A stretch of 47,917 nucleotides of DNA from Polyangiaceae bacterium (lineage in GTDB: Bacteria > Myxococcota_A > Polyangia > Polyangiales > Polyangiaceae). Shown piece after piece: positions 24,734 through 32,994 of this stretch. A model generated the notes under the pieces. That model searched no databases. It saw only the letters and a program-made list of their open reading frames with translations, and was not told the DNA's origin. The stretch covers positions 1 to 47,917 of the forward strand of contig JADLFU010000046.1 in the NCBI GenBank assembly GCA_020849655.1. The letters are read 5' to 3'. Each line of letters starts with the position of its first letter. Positions within the stretch are counted from its first letter, which is position 1. Made by a program: the position numbers and the translations under genes.

Positions 24734-26577
24734 GCGCGCGCGCGGCCCGACTCCCCGCGTGGGCCGCGCTGCTGTGGGTGCTCGCGACGCCCGCCGTCGC
24801 CCGGGCGGCGTGCGGTCCGGCGCTCGTCGACTGGGCGCGCGCGTGCGCGGCGCGCGAGGCCGTCTCCGTCGAGGCGACGGGGTGTCAGGACGGCCGCGCG
24901 ACGCTCGACGTCGGCCGGGGGAGCCTGCGGATCGAGCTGCGCGCGGATGGGAGCGGGTTCGTGTCCGAGCGAGGCGTCGGGCTCTCCCCCGTCGGGCAGT
25001 TCGCTGACTGGAAGGCGGAGCCCGCGCCGCGCCGCGAGGCCCTGGAGACCGCGCGCCGCTGCGTCACCGCGACGCCGCCGCCGCTCGTGGATCGCCCGGA
25101 CGCGACGGCCTCCGTCCGACCTCGCGCGGCGTCGCGATCGCCCACGACCTCGGTGTTGACGGCGCTCGGGCTCGTCCTCGTGCTCGCGGTGGCCGCGCGG
25201 AGGCTCGGCCTCCGGCTCACGGGCGCGTGGTTCGCGGTGACCGGCGTGGTGCTCGCGGCGCGGTGGTGGGCGCTGGGTGGCGCGTTCTTCCACCAGAACG
25301 GCCAGGGCCCGCTGTGGACGGCGCTCGACGGTCACTCGTCCCGCTACGGGCCCGGCTACGAGGAGCTGATGGCGCAGGCGGTCCGCGTCGACGCCGCGCG
25401 GCCGGAGCGCGCGATCTTCCTCGCGAACGCGGCGCTCGGGGCGCTGTGCCCGGCGCTGGCGTTCGCGGTCGCGCGCGCGCTCGGCCTCTCGCGGGGGGCG
25501 TGGCTCGTCGCCGCCGTGGTCGCGCTCGATCCGATCGCCGCGCGCGTCGGGGGGAGCGAGTCGTACTTCGCCGTCACGACGGCGCTCGCGTGGGCCGCGG
25601 CGCTCGGCGTGACCGTCGCGGCCACGACGCCGTCGACGCGACAGCGGTGGTTCGCGATCGCGGGCGCCGCCTTGCTGGTCGCGGCGACGGCGCGCGTCCA
25701 CCCCGTCGCGTGGGCGCCGCTGGCGACGCTCGCGCTGGTCCCGCTCGCGGGCGCGCGGCGAGGGGCGGCCAGGCACGTCGCGACGACGGCGGCGGGGATC
25801 GCCGCGGGCGTGCTCTTGTTCTCCGGACCGGCGATGCTCGAGGTCCTGCGCGGGCCGATCGGCGCGCAGTGGGCGCGCGCGTCGTCCCTGCGCCTCGAGT
25901 CCGTCGGCCCCGGGCTCGCGATCGCGGCCGGCGTGATCGCGCTGCTCGTCACGCGACGGCGCTCGCTCGCGCCCGCGGGCGCGCTCCTCGCGGTGGGCTG
26001 GACCTGGCTGACGTTCCGGCTCGAGCTGGATGATCCGCTGGTGGCGGGCGCGTACCTGCGGCTCGCCGCGCCGCCCGTCGTCGCGCTCGCGCTCGCCGTC
26101 CCGCTGCCTCGCCGCGCGCGCGCGCTCGCGGTCGCGCTCGCGGTGGGCGCGTGGTCCTGGTGGCTCCCCGGCGGCGCCGCGCGCGCGCGCGCGCTATCGA
26201 CGGACGCGCTCGAGGCGACGTGGGCGCTCGAGTGGCGCGAGCGTCTCACGCCTGCCGACGACGTCTGCTACGTCGCGCGCGCGGGGCGCGCCGTCCTGGC
26301 GCTCCCGCTGCACGAAGGCACGCACGCGCGCGCGACGCCCATCGATCCCGCCGTGAGCTGGACCACCGACGGCTGCACGCACTACTACCGGGGCGCCCTC
26401 TGCGACACGCCCGACGCGCGCGACGCGTGCCGAGACGTCGAGCGCGGCCTCCACCTCGCGCCGGTGGTCGTGCGCGCGCTGCCGGCCCGCCCGAGCTTGC
26501 CCTGGTTGCGCTACCTGACGTCAGAGGTCGACGTGGGGCTGTTCCGTGTGCTCGACGGGAGGCCACGCGCGCGCTGA
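24730..26577 (+). CDS. Multi-pass membrane protein with secreted N-terminal region
   Basis: The 615-residue protein begins with a signal peptide (LPAWAALLWVLATPAVARA) and a periplasmic segment of about 110 residues with three Cys. About 10 membrane helices follow (about 140-490), then a large hydrophilic C-terminal segment with two Cys-containing motifs (CTHYYRGALCDTPDARDAC). The helix block with HQNGQGPLW and YGPGYEE loops resembles dolichyl-phosphate-mannose-type (GT-C) glycosyltransferases, but the diagnostic acidic DE motif in loop 1 is not clear, so I leave the function open. The ATGA overlap couples it to the flavoprotein. Confidence 0.65.
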   Translation: MSARAARLPAWAALLWVLATPAVARAACGPALVDWARACAAREAVSVEATGCQDGRATLDVGRGSLRIELRADGSGFVSERGVGLSPVGQFADWKAEPAPRREALETARRCVTATPPPLVDRPDATASVRPRAASRSPTTSVLTALGLVLVLAVAARRLGLRLTGAWFAVTGVVLAARWWALGGAFFHQNGQGPLWTALDGHSSRYGPGYEELMAQAVRVDAARPERAIFLANAALGALCPALAFAVARALGLSRGAWLVAAVVALDPIAARVGGSESYFAVTTALAWAAALGVTVAATTPSTRQRWFAIAGAALLVAATARVHPVAWAPLATLALVPLAGARRGAARHVATTAAGIAAGVLLFSGPAMLEVLRGPIGAQWARASSLRLESVGPGLAIAAGVIALLVTRRRSLAPAGALLAVGWTWLTFRLELDDPLVAGAYLRLAAPPVVALALAVPLPRRARALAVALAVGAWSWWLPGGAARARALSTDALEATWALEWRERLTPADDVCYVARAGRAVLALPLHEGTHARATPIDPAVSWTTDGCTHYYRGALCDTPDARDACRDVERGLHLAPVVVRALPARPSLPWLRYLTSEVDVGLFRVLDGRPRAR

Positions 26578-26612
26578 GCTGAGATCCGACCCCCAGCGCG
26601 CGCGACGTCGAG

Positions 26613-26638
26613 GCGCGGACGAGGCCAGGCGCTTTTTT
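26613..26638 (+). terminator. Weak terminator-like GCGC hairpin plus T-run
   Basis: GCGC (26613-26616) and GCGC (26629-26632) are followed by six T. The stem is short; it lies 35 bases after the membrane-protein stop. Confidence 0.3.
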
Positions 26639-26668
26639 GTTGCGCGGATGGCCAGGTGATCGCTTGAT

Positions 26669-26684
26669 GATGACGATGGTCATC
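26669..26684 (+). promoter_or_regulatory. Operator-like inverted repeat GATGAC-GATG-GTCATC
   Basis: A perfect 6-4-6 repeat lies in an AT-richer patch just upstream of the DabA-like gene. No known regulator is assigned. Confidence 0.35.
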
Positions 26685-26692
26685 GACGTGCC

Positions 26693-27442
26693 GTGCGGCC
26701 CGCGGGAGGGGCGTTGAGCGAGGGGCGTGATCGCTCCGTCACGCCGGATCCCGCGGCGCCGCGCCCGGAGGTGCAGATCCTCTGCTGTGGTGGTGCCGGG
26801 GGAGAGTCGCTGCGTCATCGGCTCGGGGTGGTCGATCCGGGCATCGAGGTGCTCCTGGCAGACGCCGAGCTGCGCGGGTCTCTCGAGCGGCGCGAGGGGG
26901 CGCTGCGCGCCGCGGGCGAGGGCTCCAGGATCGAGCTTGCGTGGGTCTCGGCGAGGGAGGCCCTGTCGCCGGCGAAGATGCTGATCCGAGGCGCGGCGCG
27001 AGCGCCCGCGGAGGTCCCTCGGGGGCTCACGTCGCGCGACGCCGCGGGGCTGGTCCAGGACGCGCTGCTCGCGCGGGGGCCGAGCGCGGGGCGCGCGCGG
27101 CTGGTGGTCGTCCTCGGGCACGGCGCGCCGTGGACGCGGCGATCGCGGCACCGCTGCGGATCCTGCGGCGGCCGCCTGGACGCGAGGACCGCCCGCCAGC
27201 TCGCGTCGCTCGCGTGTCGCCCCGACGTCCGGGCCCTGCTCGCCGCGGAGGGGGCGGGCCTCCCCGACGACGCCTACTTCGTGGCCGCGGCGCGAGACAG
27301 CGACGCGTACGTCGTCACCTGGCTCGACCTCTCCCTCGTCCCTCGATACCTCGCGCCGGAGCTGATGCGCGTGAGGCAGGCGCTCCTCACGGCGGCGCAC
27401 CTCGGTCGATCGGCCGGCGCCCAGCTCGCGCGAGGCCGCTGA
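26693..27442 (+). CDS. Short, degenerate DabA (DUF2309)-like protein
   Basis: The 249 residues align by eye with the catalytic core of DabA, the large subunit of the DabAB inorganic-carbon importer, a beta-carbonic-anhydrase-like zinc protein. VQILCCGGAGGESLRHRL (27-44) matches the family's first zinc motif VQxxFCIDxRSExLRRHL. VVLGHGAP (His143) and RCGSCGGRLDARTA (C155/C158) match HG...DCGACGGxxxxNAR. ACRPDVRALLAAEGAGLPDDAYFVAA matches NRPxVRxxLxxxGIxIPDDTWF. The zinc/active-site Asp of CID is Gly here, the Asn-rich insert after HG is shortened, and the usual flanking several hundred residues are missing. No dabB-type partner is near. The GTG at 26693 or TTG at 26714 (after GGGAGG) may be the start. 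Confidence 0.6.
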   Translation: MRPAGGALSEGRDRSVTPDPAAPRPEVQILCCGGAGGESLRHRLGVVDPGIEVLLADAELRGSLERREGALRAAGEGSRIELAWVSAREALSPAKMLIRGAARAPAEVPRGLTSRDAAGLVQDALLARGPSAGRARLVVVLGHGAPWTRRSRHRCGSCGGRLDARTARQLASLACRPDVRALLAAEGAGLPDDAYFVAAARDSDAYVVTWLDLSLVPRYLAPELMRVRQALLTAAHLGRSAGAQLARGR

Positions 27443-27446
27443 GGGC

Positions 27447-29354
27447 TCACGGCGCGCGGTGGTCGCGGTAGGCAGCGAGGAGCTCTCCGAGCACCTCGAG
27501 CTCGGCGTGGAGCTCCCTGCCCTCTCGCGTGTCGGAGACCCGGCGCGGCGGGTCGAGCGCACGCACTGGGCTCATCACGGGCACGATGTCGGCGCCTCGC
27601 GAGATCGTCTCCTCGACCGACGCGAAGTGGTGGTGCCGCGCGAGGTGCGCGCCCCGCGCGTCGAGGATGAGCGTGTACCCGCGGTCGCCGTACGCCTCCG
27701 AGAACGCGCCGTCGATCGTGACGGCGAGCCCGCTCCGCTTGACCGGCTCCTCGCCGCGCTCGAGCTTCACCGGGACGTGGCCGTTGACGATGAGGCCGGG
27801 CTCGAGCCCGAGCTCCCGGAGCACGCCCTCCGCGAAGGCGCGCTCGTGCAGCAGCCTGAAATACGGGTTCTTCGTCTCGTGGTGCGTGGCCTCGTCGGCG
27901 ACGAAGTACCCCTCGAAGGTCGCCATCTTGTCCTTGCCGAACAGCGGCGAGCGCGGCCCCGCCCAGAGCCAGTACAGCAGATCGAGCCCGCGCGGATCGG
28001 GCTCTCGGACGAGGCGGTGCACCGCGACCGAGAGCGCGTCGAAGAGCGCCCGACCCGCGAGCGGCGCGCCGAGCACGTCGACGGGCGTGAGCCGCCCCGC
28101 GTCGTCGCAGGGCATGCACCCGTGGAAGATCGCGACGTCGTCGCGCGCGAGCCACATCGATCCGTGATCGGCGACGAACTGCATGTGCTCCCAGAGCCGC
28201 GGGCTCGTGACGAAGGACGCCGTCAGCCGGTCGATGCACGCGCGCTCCGCGTCGGTGAGCGAGTAAGGATCGTCAGGATCGACGGTGGGCAGGCGACGAT
28301 CCCGCATCGGGTGGCGCACGCCGTCGAGCAGCACGGTCGCGCGGTCGCGATCGATGAGGTGCAGGAGCTCACGCCCGGCGAGCCCGAAGCTCGGGTTGCG
28401 CCGGCTCGTCTGCGCGACGAGCTTCTGCTCGATGATCGCGATGGCCTTCTGCATCCTCGCGAGGAGCTCGGCGTCGCGGAGATCGCGCGCCTTCGGCTGG
28501 AACCTCGCGCACGGATCGTCGCCGTAGACCTCACGCGCGAGGTGCTCGATCGGGGCGAGCGGGATGCCGTAGCCCTCCTCGAGCTGCGCGGTGCGCCCGT
28601 AGCGCAGCGAGATGCGCGCGACGGTCGCGACGCACGCCTGCTGCCCGAGGCACGCGCCCAGCCACGACGCGTCGTGGTTGCCCCACGTGAAGGAGACGCG
28701 CGGCTGCTCCATCAGGAGCGCGATCACGGCGTCGACGCGCGGCCCGCGGTCGCCGAGATCGCCCGCGACGATGAGCTCGTCGACGGCGAGGTTCCGCACG
28801 GCGCGAGACAGCGTGCGCACGACCCGCAGCCCGCCATCGACGGCGAGGTGGGGCGCGAGCAGCGCGGAGACGACCTCCGGATCATCGCAGCCGCCGCGCG
28901 TGACGAGCTCGCGGAACAGCGCCTGGTACCCGTGGGGCACGGTCGCGTCGAGCTCCTCGACGCCGCGCCCCGAGGCGAGCGTGCGCGCCACCCGGGCGAG
29001 CGAGGCGGCCGTGCGGCGCGCGAGGTCGTCGCGCGCGTGTGGTGGACGTCGCTCGAGCGCCGCGCGCCACGCCTCGCGCGGGTAGTAGATGATCGAGAGG
29101 AGCTCGTCGACGCCCGCCTGGTCGAGCTCTCCGTCGAACATCTGGCGGACGCGCGGGCGCAGGCTCCCCGACGCGTTGCGGATGACGTGGCTCAGCTTGT
29201 TCGCCTCGCCGTGCACGTCGCTCACCACGTGGACGGTGGGCGCCGGGCGCGCGCCCGCGAGCGACAGCGCCGACATCGCGCCGAGCACCGACGCCTCGTC
29301 CGGGTGTTGCCGCGCGAGCGCGCGGAGGTGCAGGCTCGACCTCGGAGGGGCCAT
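27447..29354 (-). CDS. fbp: Fructose-1,6-bisphosphatase, class III
   Basis: Class III FBPase removes the 1-phosphate of fructose-1,6-bisphosphate in gluconeogenesis. It is a calcineurin-like metallophosphatase unrelated to the common class I enzyme. The 635 residues show the metal-binding motifs VSDVHGE (44-50), AGDLGDRGP and TWGNHDASWLGA, the family-specific WLWAGPRSPLFGKDKMATFE, the metal/phosphate HGCMPC and NGHVPVK. Length is typical. Its stop is four bases from the stop of the DabA-like gene (convergent). Class III is best known from Firmicutes and Bacteroidetes, so the gene may have been acquired, though base composition matches its surroundings. Confidence 0.9.
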   Translation of the reverse strand: MAPPRSSLHLRALARQHPDEASVLGAMSALSLAGARPAPTVHVVSDVHGEANKLSHVIRNASGSLRPRVRQMFDGELDQAGVDELLSIIYYPREAWRAALERRPPHARDDLARRTAASLARVARTLASGRGVEELDATVPHGYQALFRELVTRGGCDDPEVVSALLAPHLAVDGGLRVVRTLSRAVRNLAVDELIVAGDLGDRGPRVDAVIALLMEQPRVSFTWGNHDASWLGACLGQQACVATVARISLRYGRTAQLEEGYGIPLAPIEHLAREVYGDDPCARFQPKARDLRDAELLARMQKAIAIIEQKLVAQTSRRNPSFGLAGRELLHLIDRDRATVLLDGVRHPMRDRRLPTVDPDDPYSLTDAERACIDRLTASFVTSPRLWEHMQFVADHGSMWLARDDVAIFHGCMPCDDAGRLTPVDVLGAPLAGRALFDALSVAVHRLVREPDPRGLDLLYWLWAGPRSPLFGKDKMATFEGYFVADEATHHETKNPYFRLLHERAFAEGVLRELGLEPGLIVNGHVPVKLERGEEPVKRSGLAVTIDGAFSEAYGDRGYTLILDARGAHLARHHHFASVEETISRGADIVPVMSPVRALDPPRRVSDTREGRELHAELEVLGELLAAYRDHRAP

Positions 29355-29362
29355 GGCCCGCG

Positions 29363-29368
29363 AGGGTA
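29363..29368 (-). promoter_or_regulatory. Candidate -10 hexamer TACCCT for fbp
   Basis: TACCCT on the minus strand lies eight bases before the fbp ATG, with no Shine-Dalgarno sequence between; a leaderless start is likely. Confidence 0.45.
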
Positions 29369-29375
29369 CCGCGGC

Positions 29376-30791
29376 TCACTGGCGCGTGAGCGCGTAGATC
29401 CCGTTGTCTGCCTCGAGGTACATCGTGCACCGGTCGGGCGACAGCGACGGCGTGCGGTAGTCCTCCTTGTCGAAGCCGATCATCGTCACGCGCGTCGCGG
29501 GCCCGGCGAAGACCCCGTCCTTCAGCGGCGCGCGGTAGACGTGCAGCCGCTCGTCCGCCGCGCAGCGCGCGTGGAAGAAGATCTGGTTGCCGTTCGGCAG
29601 CACCCACGGCGCGAGGTCCTCCTCGTGGGCGCCCGTCGCGCACCCCTCGAGCGGCACCTCCACCCGCTTCAGCGCGCCGGGCTGGTCGGTCGTCGTGATC
29701 GTGAACAGGCGCGGCGGGTCGCTCGACCCCGCGCCCGAGTAGCGCTCGCTCATCCAGAAGAACCGCGGCGGCCCGGCCTCGTAGGCGAAGGCGACGCTGT
29801 AGTCGAACCGCCCGGTGTCGAGCAGCATCACCGGCGCGTAGTAGTACTGGCTGCCCGCGCGGCTCGCGAGGTAGATGCGGCGCCCCTCGGGCAGCGTGCC
29901 CGCGGGTCCGCTGTAGGGCCGCGCGCTGTCGAGGAACACGAAGCGCGCGCCAGGCGCCGTGTCGATCGGCTGGACGAACGACAGCGCCGTCGCGCCGACC
30001 GAGTTCGGCATCGGCAGCGGGCCGGAGTCGTCGACGCCCTTGTTGACGCAGCAGTCCTCCTCGGCCCCGCCGACGAACGGCGCGCTGGCGGACGAGATCT
30101 GGTAGCCGTTCACGCCCGACGGGAGCTTCGTGCGAAAGAACATCCGAGCGCCGTCGCCGAACACCTGCACCCGCGGGAACGATCGCTCCGCGGCCCCCGG
30201 CATCATCGCGAGGTACTGCGGCGCGCCGACGACGAAGCGGTTCATGTCGCCGCACGGCGCGCACGTGCCCGAGTCGACGTTGCAGTAGTGCCCGCCCTTG
30301 CACGCGGTGGGATCGTTCGCGCAGGTGGGCTGCGCGCCGCCAGCCCCGGACGCGCCCGCGACGCTGCCGCCGCCAGCTCCCGCGACGCTGCCGCCGCCAG
30401 CTCCCGCGACGTTGCCGCCGCCAGCTCCCGCGACGTTGCCGCCGCCAGCGCCGGCCACACCGTCACTGCCACCAGCTCCGGCCACACTCCCGCCTCCCGC
30501 TCCAGCGCCGCTGCCGCCCGCGCCGCCCGGATCGCTGCCGCCCGTGGAGCCCGCAGCGCCGCCGCTCGAGGTGCCGCCACTCGACGTGCCGCCGCTCGAG
30601 GCGCCCCCGCTCGACGTGCCGCCGCTCGACGTGCCCCCGCTCGCCTTCCCCGACGAGCCCGCCTGGGACGCGCCGCTCTGGCCCGTCGTCGCGCCCGTCG
30701 CCCCCGCGCTCGCTGGAGCCTCGCTGAAGCCCTCGCCGCTGCACGCCAACCAGAGCACCGAGCCCGAGACCAAGATGAGCGACCTGCGCAT
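29376..30791 (-). CDS. Gly-rich-linker lipoprotein with PD40/WD-like repeats
   Basis: The 471-residue lipoprotein has signal SLILVSGSVLWLAC (Cys17), then about 130 residues of Gly/Ser/Ala repeats (GGTSS and AGAGGG types). A Cys-rich stalk follows (ACKGGHYCNVDSGTCAPC), then a globular part with repeats of the PD40/TolB-like type (RVQVFGDGARMFFRT, YQISSASAPFVGG, TPSLSPDRCTMYLEADNGIYAL), probably a beta propeller. This is a familiar myxobacterial surface-lipoprotein design. The ATG at the signal peptide was used rather than an upstream ATG in the same frame. Function is unknown. Confidence 0.75.
   Translation of the reverse strand: MRRSLILVSGSVLWLACSGEGFSEAPASAGATGATTGQSGASQAGSSGKASGGTSSGGTSSGGASSGGTSSGGTSSGGAAGSTGGSDPGGAGGSGAGAGGGSVAGAGGSDGVAGAGGGNVAGAGGGNVAGAGGGSVAGAGGGSVAGASGAGGAQPTCANDPTACKGGHYCNVDSGTCAPCGDMNRFVVGAPQYLAMMPGAAERSFPRVQVFGDGARMFFRTKLPSGVNGYQISSASAPFVGGAEEDCCVNKGVDDSGPLPMPNSVGATALSFVQPIDTAPGARFVFLDSARPYSGPAGTLPEGRRIYLASRAGSQYYYAPVMLLDTGRFDYSVAFAYEAGPPRFFWMSERYSGAGSSDPPRLFTITTTDQPGALKRVEVPLEGCATGAHEEDLAPWVLPNGNQIFFHARCAADERLHVYRAPLKDGVFAGPATRVTMIGFDKEDYRTPSLSPDRCTMYLEADNGIYALTRQ
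30361..30456. repeat. Four 24-bp tandem repeats inside a lipoprotein gene
   Basis: Four near-identical in-frame 24-base units (ACGCTGCCGCCGCCAGCTCC-like, starting at 30361, 30385, 30409, 30433) encode the octad AGAGGG[S/N]V. The length could vary by slippage without shifting the frame. Confidence 0.8.
30565..30639. repeat. Five 15-bp tandem repeats inside a lipoprotein gene
   Basis: Five 15-base units of the CTCGACGTGCCGCCG type encode the pentad GGTSS/GGASS in the linker of the lipoprotein on the minus strand. Confidence 0.75.
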
Positions 30792-30906
30792 GGACGGCGG
30801 CCGAGCAAGAAGGACGCCACGCAAGCAATGCGCTGAAGCGCCCTCGTCCGCCGCGAGCAGCCTACGCAATCGTTGCGGTCCACCCCCACGCCGTGCGGTC
30901 GCCGGC

Positions 30907-30945: not shown

Positions 30946-32994
<2,049 letters not shown>

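Follow-up and report, generated by a model that had tools for sequence, protein, structure and literature searches.

Within the window, the 47,917-nucleotide stretch of Polyangiaceae DNA analysed here, a gene at 26693-27442 on the forward strand encodes a short protein, mini-DabA, that matches the Pfam family PF10070 (DabA; E=3.4e-21), and its frame has the highest coding likelihood of the six. Translation confirms the open frame of 249 amino acids described in the initial annotation and the motif positions given there, with the cysteines C31/C32, GHG at residues 142-144, CGSCGG at 155-160, and PDDAYF at 191-196. The protein has 249 amino acids when read from the GTG at 26693 and 242 when read from the TTG at 26714. 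Judged by the sequence, the TTG is the likelier start, given that GGGAGGGG (26704-26716, forward strand) contains a run resembling a ribosome-binding site followed by this codon, with GGAGG lying 4 bases 5′ of it. Promoter and terminator scans at the gene found neither element, and none was expected by chance.

The gene lies between two others that are common to the sister species. Upstream, separated by 115 bp, a gene at 24754-26577 on the forward strand encodes a 607-amino-acid membrane protein with no Pfam match above cut-off. Downstream, the convergent gene for a class III fructose-1,6-bisphosphatase (FBPase_2; 27447-29354, reverse strand) has its stop 4 bp from mini-DabA. Neither flanking gene hints at the role of mini-DabA. 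Farther along, a 497-amino-acid secreted-type protein with long Gly/Ser/Ala repeats is encoded between the FBPase and PrkA genes (29376-30869, reverse strand), and a contig of the sister species has the FBPase and PrkA regions adjacent, without the repeat protein. The PrkA kinase gene (30950-32406) shares 95.5% DNA identity with L052:2594-4050 of the other genome of the genus, whereas the adjoining FBPase gene shares only 82%, a contrast that may reflect either strong constraint or recent exchange.

Descent from DabA and predicted fold

The PF10070 match covers residues 97-239 with 75.8 bits against a curated cut-off of 25, and the DabA ancestry proposed in the initial annotation holds on the strength of this significant HMM match. 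The Pfam search returned no other family with E up to 1, including no match to PF00484, and PHROGs and NCBIfam gave no match to mini-DabA. Among solved structures, mini-DabA has one real match, 9rd0 (DabA2 of Halothiobacillus neapolitanus; phmmer, E=3.3e-8). Residues 12-54 align without gaps to DabA2 331-373, the segment that holds the DabA2 CIDVRSE motif, with 15 of 43 positions identical, and the phmmer alignment sets the register as Cys32=Cys351, Gly34=Asp353, and Gly36=Arg355. When scored with a motif HMM built from 113 DabAs, the N-terminal 110 residues beat 4998 of 5000 shuffles, the other two scoring as high. Because of the ungapped alignment and the shuffle test, both halves of mini-DabA are DabA-derived and in one register.

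AlphaFold2 supplied with 40 sequences (39 of them DabA relatives) gave a model with pLDDT 77.9 and pTM 0.74, in which strand 27-32 ends at Cys32, strand 137-143 ends at His143, and confidence is low at residues 78-97, the former position of the membrane finger. On the mini-DabA sequence alone, the prediction reached pLDDT 36 with no confident fold. Foldseek found no significant match in the PDB, and the DabA2 structure was absent among the matches listed; with chains re-aligned by VIA-align, ranks 1-36 were all of the beta-carbonic anhydrase (beta-CA) class, a CS2 hydrolase among them, with a best Z of 6.6 over 118 residues. A beta-CA fold is therefore likely for mini-DabA in these models, though partly inherited from the alignment of DabA relatives.

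The predicted metal site and the missing machinery

In the 2026 cryo-EM structure of DAB2, the zinc of DabA2 is held by Cys351, His524, Cys539, and a water molecule, Asp353 pairs with Arg355 and makes no zinc contact, and the waters bound by Ser356, His585, and Asp590 may form a proton relay (PMC13144422). The DabA2 mutants D353A, D353N, and R355A are impaired in growth (PMC13144422). By alignment, mini-DabA keeps the whole set of zinc ligands, with zinc binding itself predicted: Cys32 corresponds to Cys351, His143 of GHG (27116-27124, forward strand) to His524, and Cys155 of CGSCGG (27155-27172, forward strand) to Cys539, the NNP that precedes the last motif in DabA being gone. These three positions and the GHG/CGxCG motifs are invariant across mini-DabA and 39 other DabAs.

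The catalytic surroundings of these positions are lost. At the site of DabA CIDVRSE, mini-DabA reads CGGAGGE (residues 32-38; 26786-26806, forward strand), such that the Asp353-Arg355 dyad is replaced by Gly34 and Gly36 and Ser356 by Gly37. At the HDTTTD site, it reads RDSDAY (residues 201-206; 27293-27310, forward strand), placing Arg201 at His585 and Tyr206 at Asp590, and thus all three relay residues are absent by alignment. The initial annotation was right about the small size and the altered CID motif, and it read the alteration as loss of a zinc-ligand Asp. That reading is off since Asp353 is a catalytic residue in the cryo-EM structure and not a zinc ligand (PMC13144422), all three structural ligands are kept, and what has been lost is the Asp-Arg dyad, including the partner Arg. 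The changes from Asp to Gly and from Arg to Gly are each reachable by a single-base change. A frameshift inside the Cys motif was considered as the source of the change from CID to CGG and rejected, as the other frames hold no DabA-like sequence.

DabA2 has three parts (PMC13144422): a helical N-terminal domain; a beta-CA-like domain I (residues 341-655), which contains both the zinc site and the finger inserted into the membrane; and a domain II split between residues 281-336 and 656-827. Mini-DabA is the beta-CA-like domain I and no other part of DabA. In the six frames of 25001-29500, the N-terminal domain and domain II leave no trace, and the portion of the PF10070 profile matched in the whole assembly is 438-571 only. 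Domain I is itself reduced. The GFAGFFG strand lining the CO2 tunnel is gone by alignment, and residues 57-110 (26861-27022, forward strand), non-hydrophobic and modelled with low confidence, stand in place of this strand and the finger (alpha16/17). The spacing from Cys to GHG is 110 residues in mini-DabA and 174-227 in full-length DabAs, and the 19-residue hydropathy in this gap reaches at best 0.75, compared with a median value of 1.83; hence the membrane finger, with its Glu444, has been lost.

No second DabA accompanies mini-DabA, whose gene gives the only PF10070 match in the assembly (6.56 Mb, 97% complete); this search and the six-frame scan also revealed no disrupted full-length DabA adjoining the gene. 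PF00361 (DabB/Nuo-type) has just three matches in the assembly, all within a single run on a different contig (C269), where they are most simply nuoLMN, and no DabB was found. The earlier description of the gene as standing alone, without DabB, is thus sustained. An ordinary beta-CA is also encoded in the same genome. Of six pump features tested, mini-DabA has one, the zinc ligands. It is a DabA derivative by sequence and not a DabA in function, and it cannot be a DAB pump.

A DabA without the finger was observed elsewhere in the phylum, at L059:33-1871 (G173:C378), where a protein of at least 612 amino acids lacks the membrane finger and keeps the catalytic motifs. Its neighbours, across a brief stretch of N, are NuoL/DabB-like genes, and the contig is short and comes from one assembly. 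Such a finger-less DabA would be of interest to the proton-coupling model.

Distribution and signs of constraint or decay

A genome of the same genus has both flanking genes, with 57% and 76% protein identity. Beside these flanks, the sister species has other sequence: the upstream gene is followed by the start of a sensor-like protein, and FBPase is preceded by an unrelated frame, with no mini-DabA in either place. Both sister contigs end there, leaving the site unspanned, and the completeness of that assembly is only 84%. A search of the window's genome did not recover the sensor-like gene. The interval 26578-27446 thus differs between two species of the genus, holding mini-DabA in one and other sequence in the sister.

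Protein searches found no short relative of mini-DabA in 97 near relatives or in 108 family, 184 order, and 318 class genomes, and the PF10070 profile found no comparable stand-alone domain in 379 genomes of the phylum, where the other short matches reach or approach contig ends or belong to longer frames. Three candidates were set aside: a match to a 373-amino-acid frame (G008) was attributed to chance since that frame is alpha/beta-hydrolase-like, and frames of 428 and 401 amino acids (G047 and G048) are cut DabAs because both start at contig ends. Scanning GTDB yielded 352 DabA loci, and the 80 best of these include no comparable short stand-alone form: each DabA frame is either long or continues past the end of its stored stretch, and wherever the Cys-to-GHG spacing can be measured it has the full-length value. 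No ortholog was found in the genome and viral contigs searched, and plasmids yielded none, only loci annotated as DUF2309 with partial, weak matches. Titles and abstracts of the open literature searched mention no short or stand-alone DabA domain. The sequence of greatest identity, L072 from a Planctomycetota bacterium, is 43% identical across the C-terminal part. In the tree, DabAs of the same order cluster with Myxococcota loci, in keeping with the mention of myxobacteria in the initial annotation, and mini-DabA lacks a firm position, on a long branch of 3.3-3.4 changes per column.

At 45 domain I positions that are near-invariant among 40 DabAs, mini-DabA keeps 22 residues, replaces 15, and deletes 8; in the C-terminal part, compared with 114 DabAs, 17 of 26 near-invariant positions are kept. 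With 22 of the 37 aligned invariants kept, the chance of keeping all three zinc ligands is about 0.2 (22/37 x 21/36 x 20/35). Under neutral drift to 40% replacement, the whole ORF stays free of stops in only 3-13% of runs with indels not counted, and 9-19 indels would be expected at an assumed rate of 5-10% of substitutions, which points to constraint. The C-terminal part alone stays stop-free in 37-55% of runs, and retention of the hydrophobic core is no higher than in the neutral simulation. GC3 is 0.89, the second lowest of the 34 called genes in the window (0.89-0.98; intergenic GC 0.74), and falls to 0.77 in the altered Cys-motif stretch, where the coding score is poor. Because they concern a single sequence from one genome, the selection tests do not settle function versus decay.

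Interpretation and comparison with known systems

Mini-DabA is best explained, at a probability just short of even, as a soluble, stand-alone, zinc-binding pseudo-carbonic anhydrase derived from DabA. By this mechanism, domain I of DabA would have been reduced to a free-standing copy of its Rossmann-like core. The Cys-His-Cys site (Cys32, His143, Cys155) would have been kept as the Asp-Arg dyad, the relay residues, the CO2-tunnel strand, the DabB-coupling finger, the N-terminal domain, and domain II were lost. The product, probably a dimer, would fold around a metal site and show low hydratase activity or none; it may hold zinc and perhaps also an anion or a partner protein. Because the catalytic and coupling parts are lost, it can have no role in proton-driven CO2 hydration. 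In support of the pseudo-carbonic anhydrase stand the strong PF10070 match, the Cys-motif register, the invariant ligand positions, the AlphaFold2 model built with DabA relatives, and the VIA-align ranking. In addition, the frame is intact, with start and stop, despite 15 replacements and 8 deletions at the 45 near-invariant positions, and the existence of an otherwise complete finger-less DabA implies that the core can do without the finger. The initial annotation had offered a repurposed domain, a decaying remnant, or a regulator; the first two are viable, and evidence for a regulator was lacking. A DabA zinc domain freed from the proton-driven pump and deprived of its chemistry, now serving as a soluble sensor or scaffold that binds zinc or CO2/bicarbonate, a pseudo-carbonic anhydrase of DabA and not of ordinary beta-CA origin, is considered unlikely.

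The close rival, a substantial possibility ranked just behind the zinc-binding pseudo-carbonic anhydrase, is a decaying remnant: deletions would have removed the ends and middle of a full-length dabA, native or acquired, along with dabB, leaving a functionless core to drift. The singleton status of the gene, its low GC3 and codon score, its neutral-like core retention, and its absence beside both flanks in the sister species count against the pseudo-carbonic anhydrase and favour the remnant. The missing catalytic residues and the length of the end branch also favour the remnant, and the chance of about 0.2 for the three ligands and the lack of a confident fold from the sequence alone count against the pseudo-carbonic anhydrase. 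The remnant also stays viable since stop codons are infrequent in DNA of 73% GC. Arguing against it, the missing domains have left no trace in any frame of 25001-29500, the two recognisable segments lie in a single reading frame that has both start and stop codons, and drift of this extent seldom spares the frame from stops and, at the assumed rate, from indels. The kept zinc triad and the CS2 hydrolase among the structural matches would also suit an active small hydrolase, in which a domain I homodimer directs zinc-bound water at CO2, COS, or CS2 with the aid of other helper residues. This is improbable, given that the dyad needed in DabA2 (PMC13144422) is lost and that an ordinary beta-CA is already encoded in the genome. 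Less probable still is an assembly artefact or mis-joined contig; although the genome is a draft (307 contigs, contamination 4%), the genes on both flanks are those of the genus, mini-DabA starts and stops within its own gene, which contains no Ns, and the assembly includes no further piece of a DabA.

The demonstration that DabA is the carbonic-anhydrase-like subunit of a membrane-potential-coupled pump is recent, and this pump works only with the partner of DabA and the membrane finger. A natural stand-alone DabA zinc domain, lacking the catalytic and coupling parts, would show that the domain is able to fold and function by itself, and mini-DabA would offer a compact natural system for probing the roles of the dyad and the finger; as a mere remnant, it would represent ordinary gene decay. 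The interest of a short stand-alone DabA domain stays modest unless orthologs appear that are under selection.

Among known systems, mini-DabA is homologous over both domain I segments to DabA/MpsB/DUF2309 (PF10070), the subunit of the DAB inorganic-carbon pump (DabA2, 9rd0), with which it shares the Cys351/His524/Cys539 positions, GHG, and CGxCG. DabA has 800 or more residues and mini-DabA about 249, and the latter is without the N-terminal domain, domain II, the finger, the Asp-Arg dyad, His585/Asp590, and DabB. The finger-less DabA L059 resembles mini-DabA in its Cys-to-GHG spacing (108 versus 110 amino acids) and in a blastp alignment of residues 23-205 at 31% identity, and differs in having CLDERE, NNP, HDTSAD, N-terminal residues, domain II, and its NuoL/DabB-like neighbours. 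In beta-CAs, two residues separate the His from the second Cys ligand. Mini-DabA has 12 residues there, no Asp-Arg dyad, and no PF00484 match, yet it is like the beta-CAs (PF00484; TvaCA1 6y04, Cab 1g5c) in its predicted fold and in the Cys...His...Cys order of ligands at strand ends.
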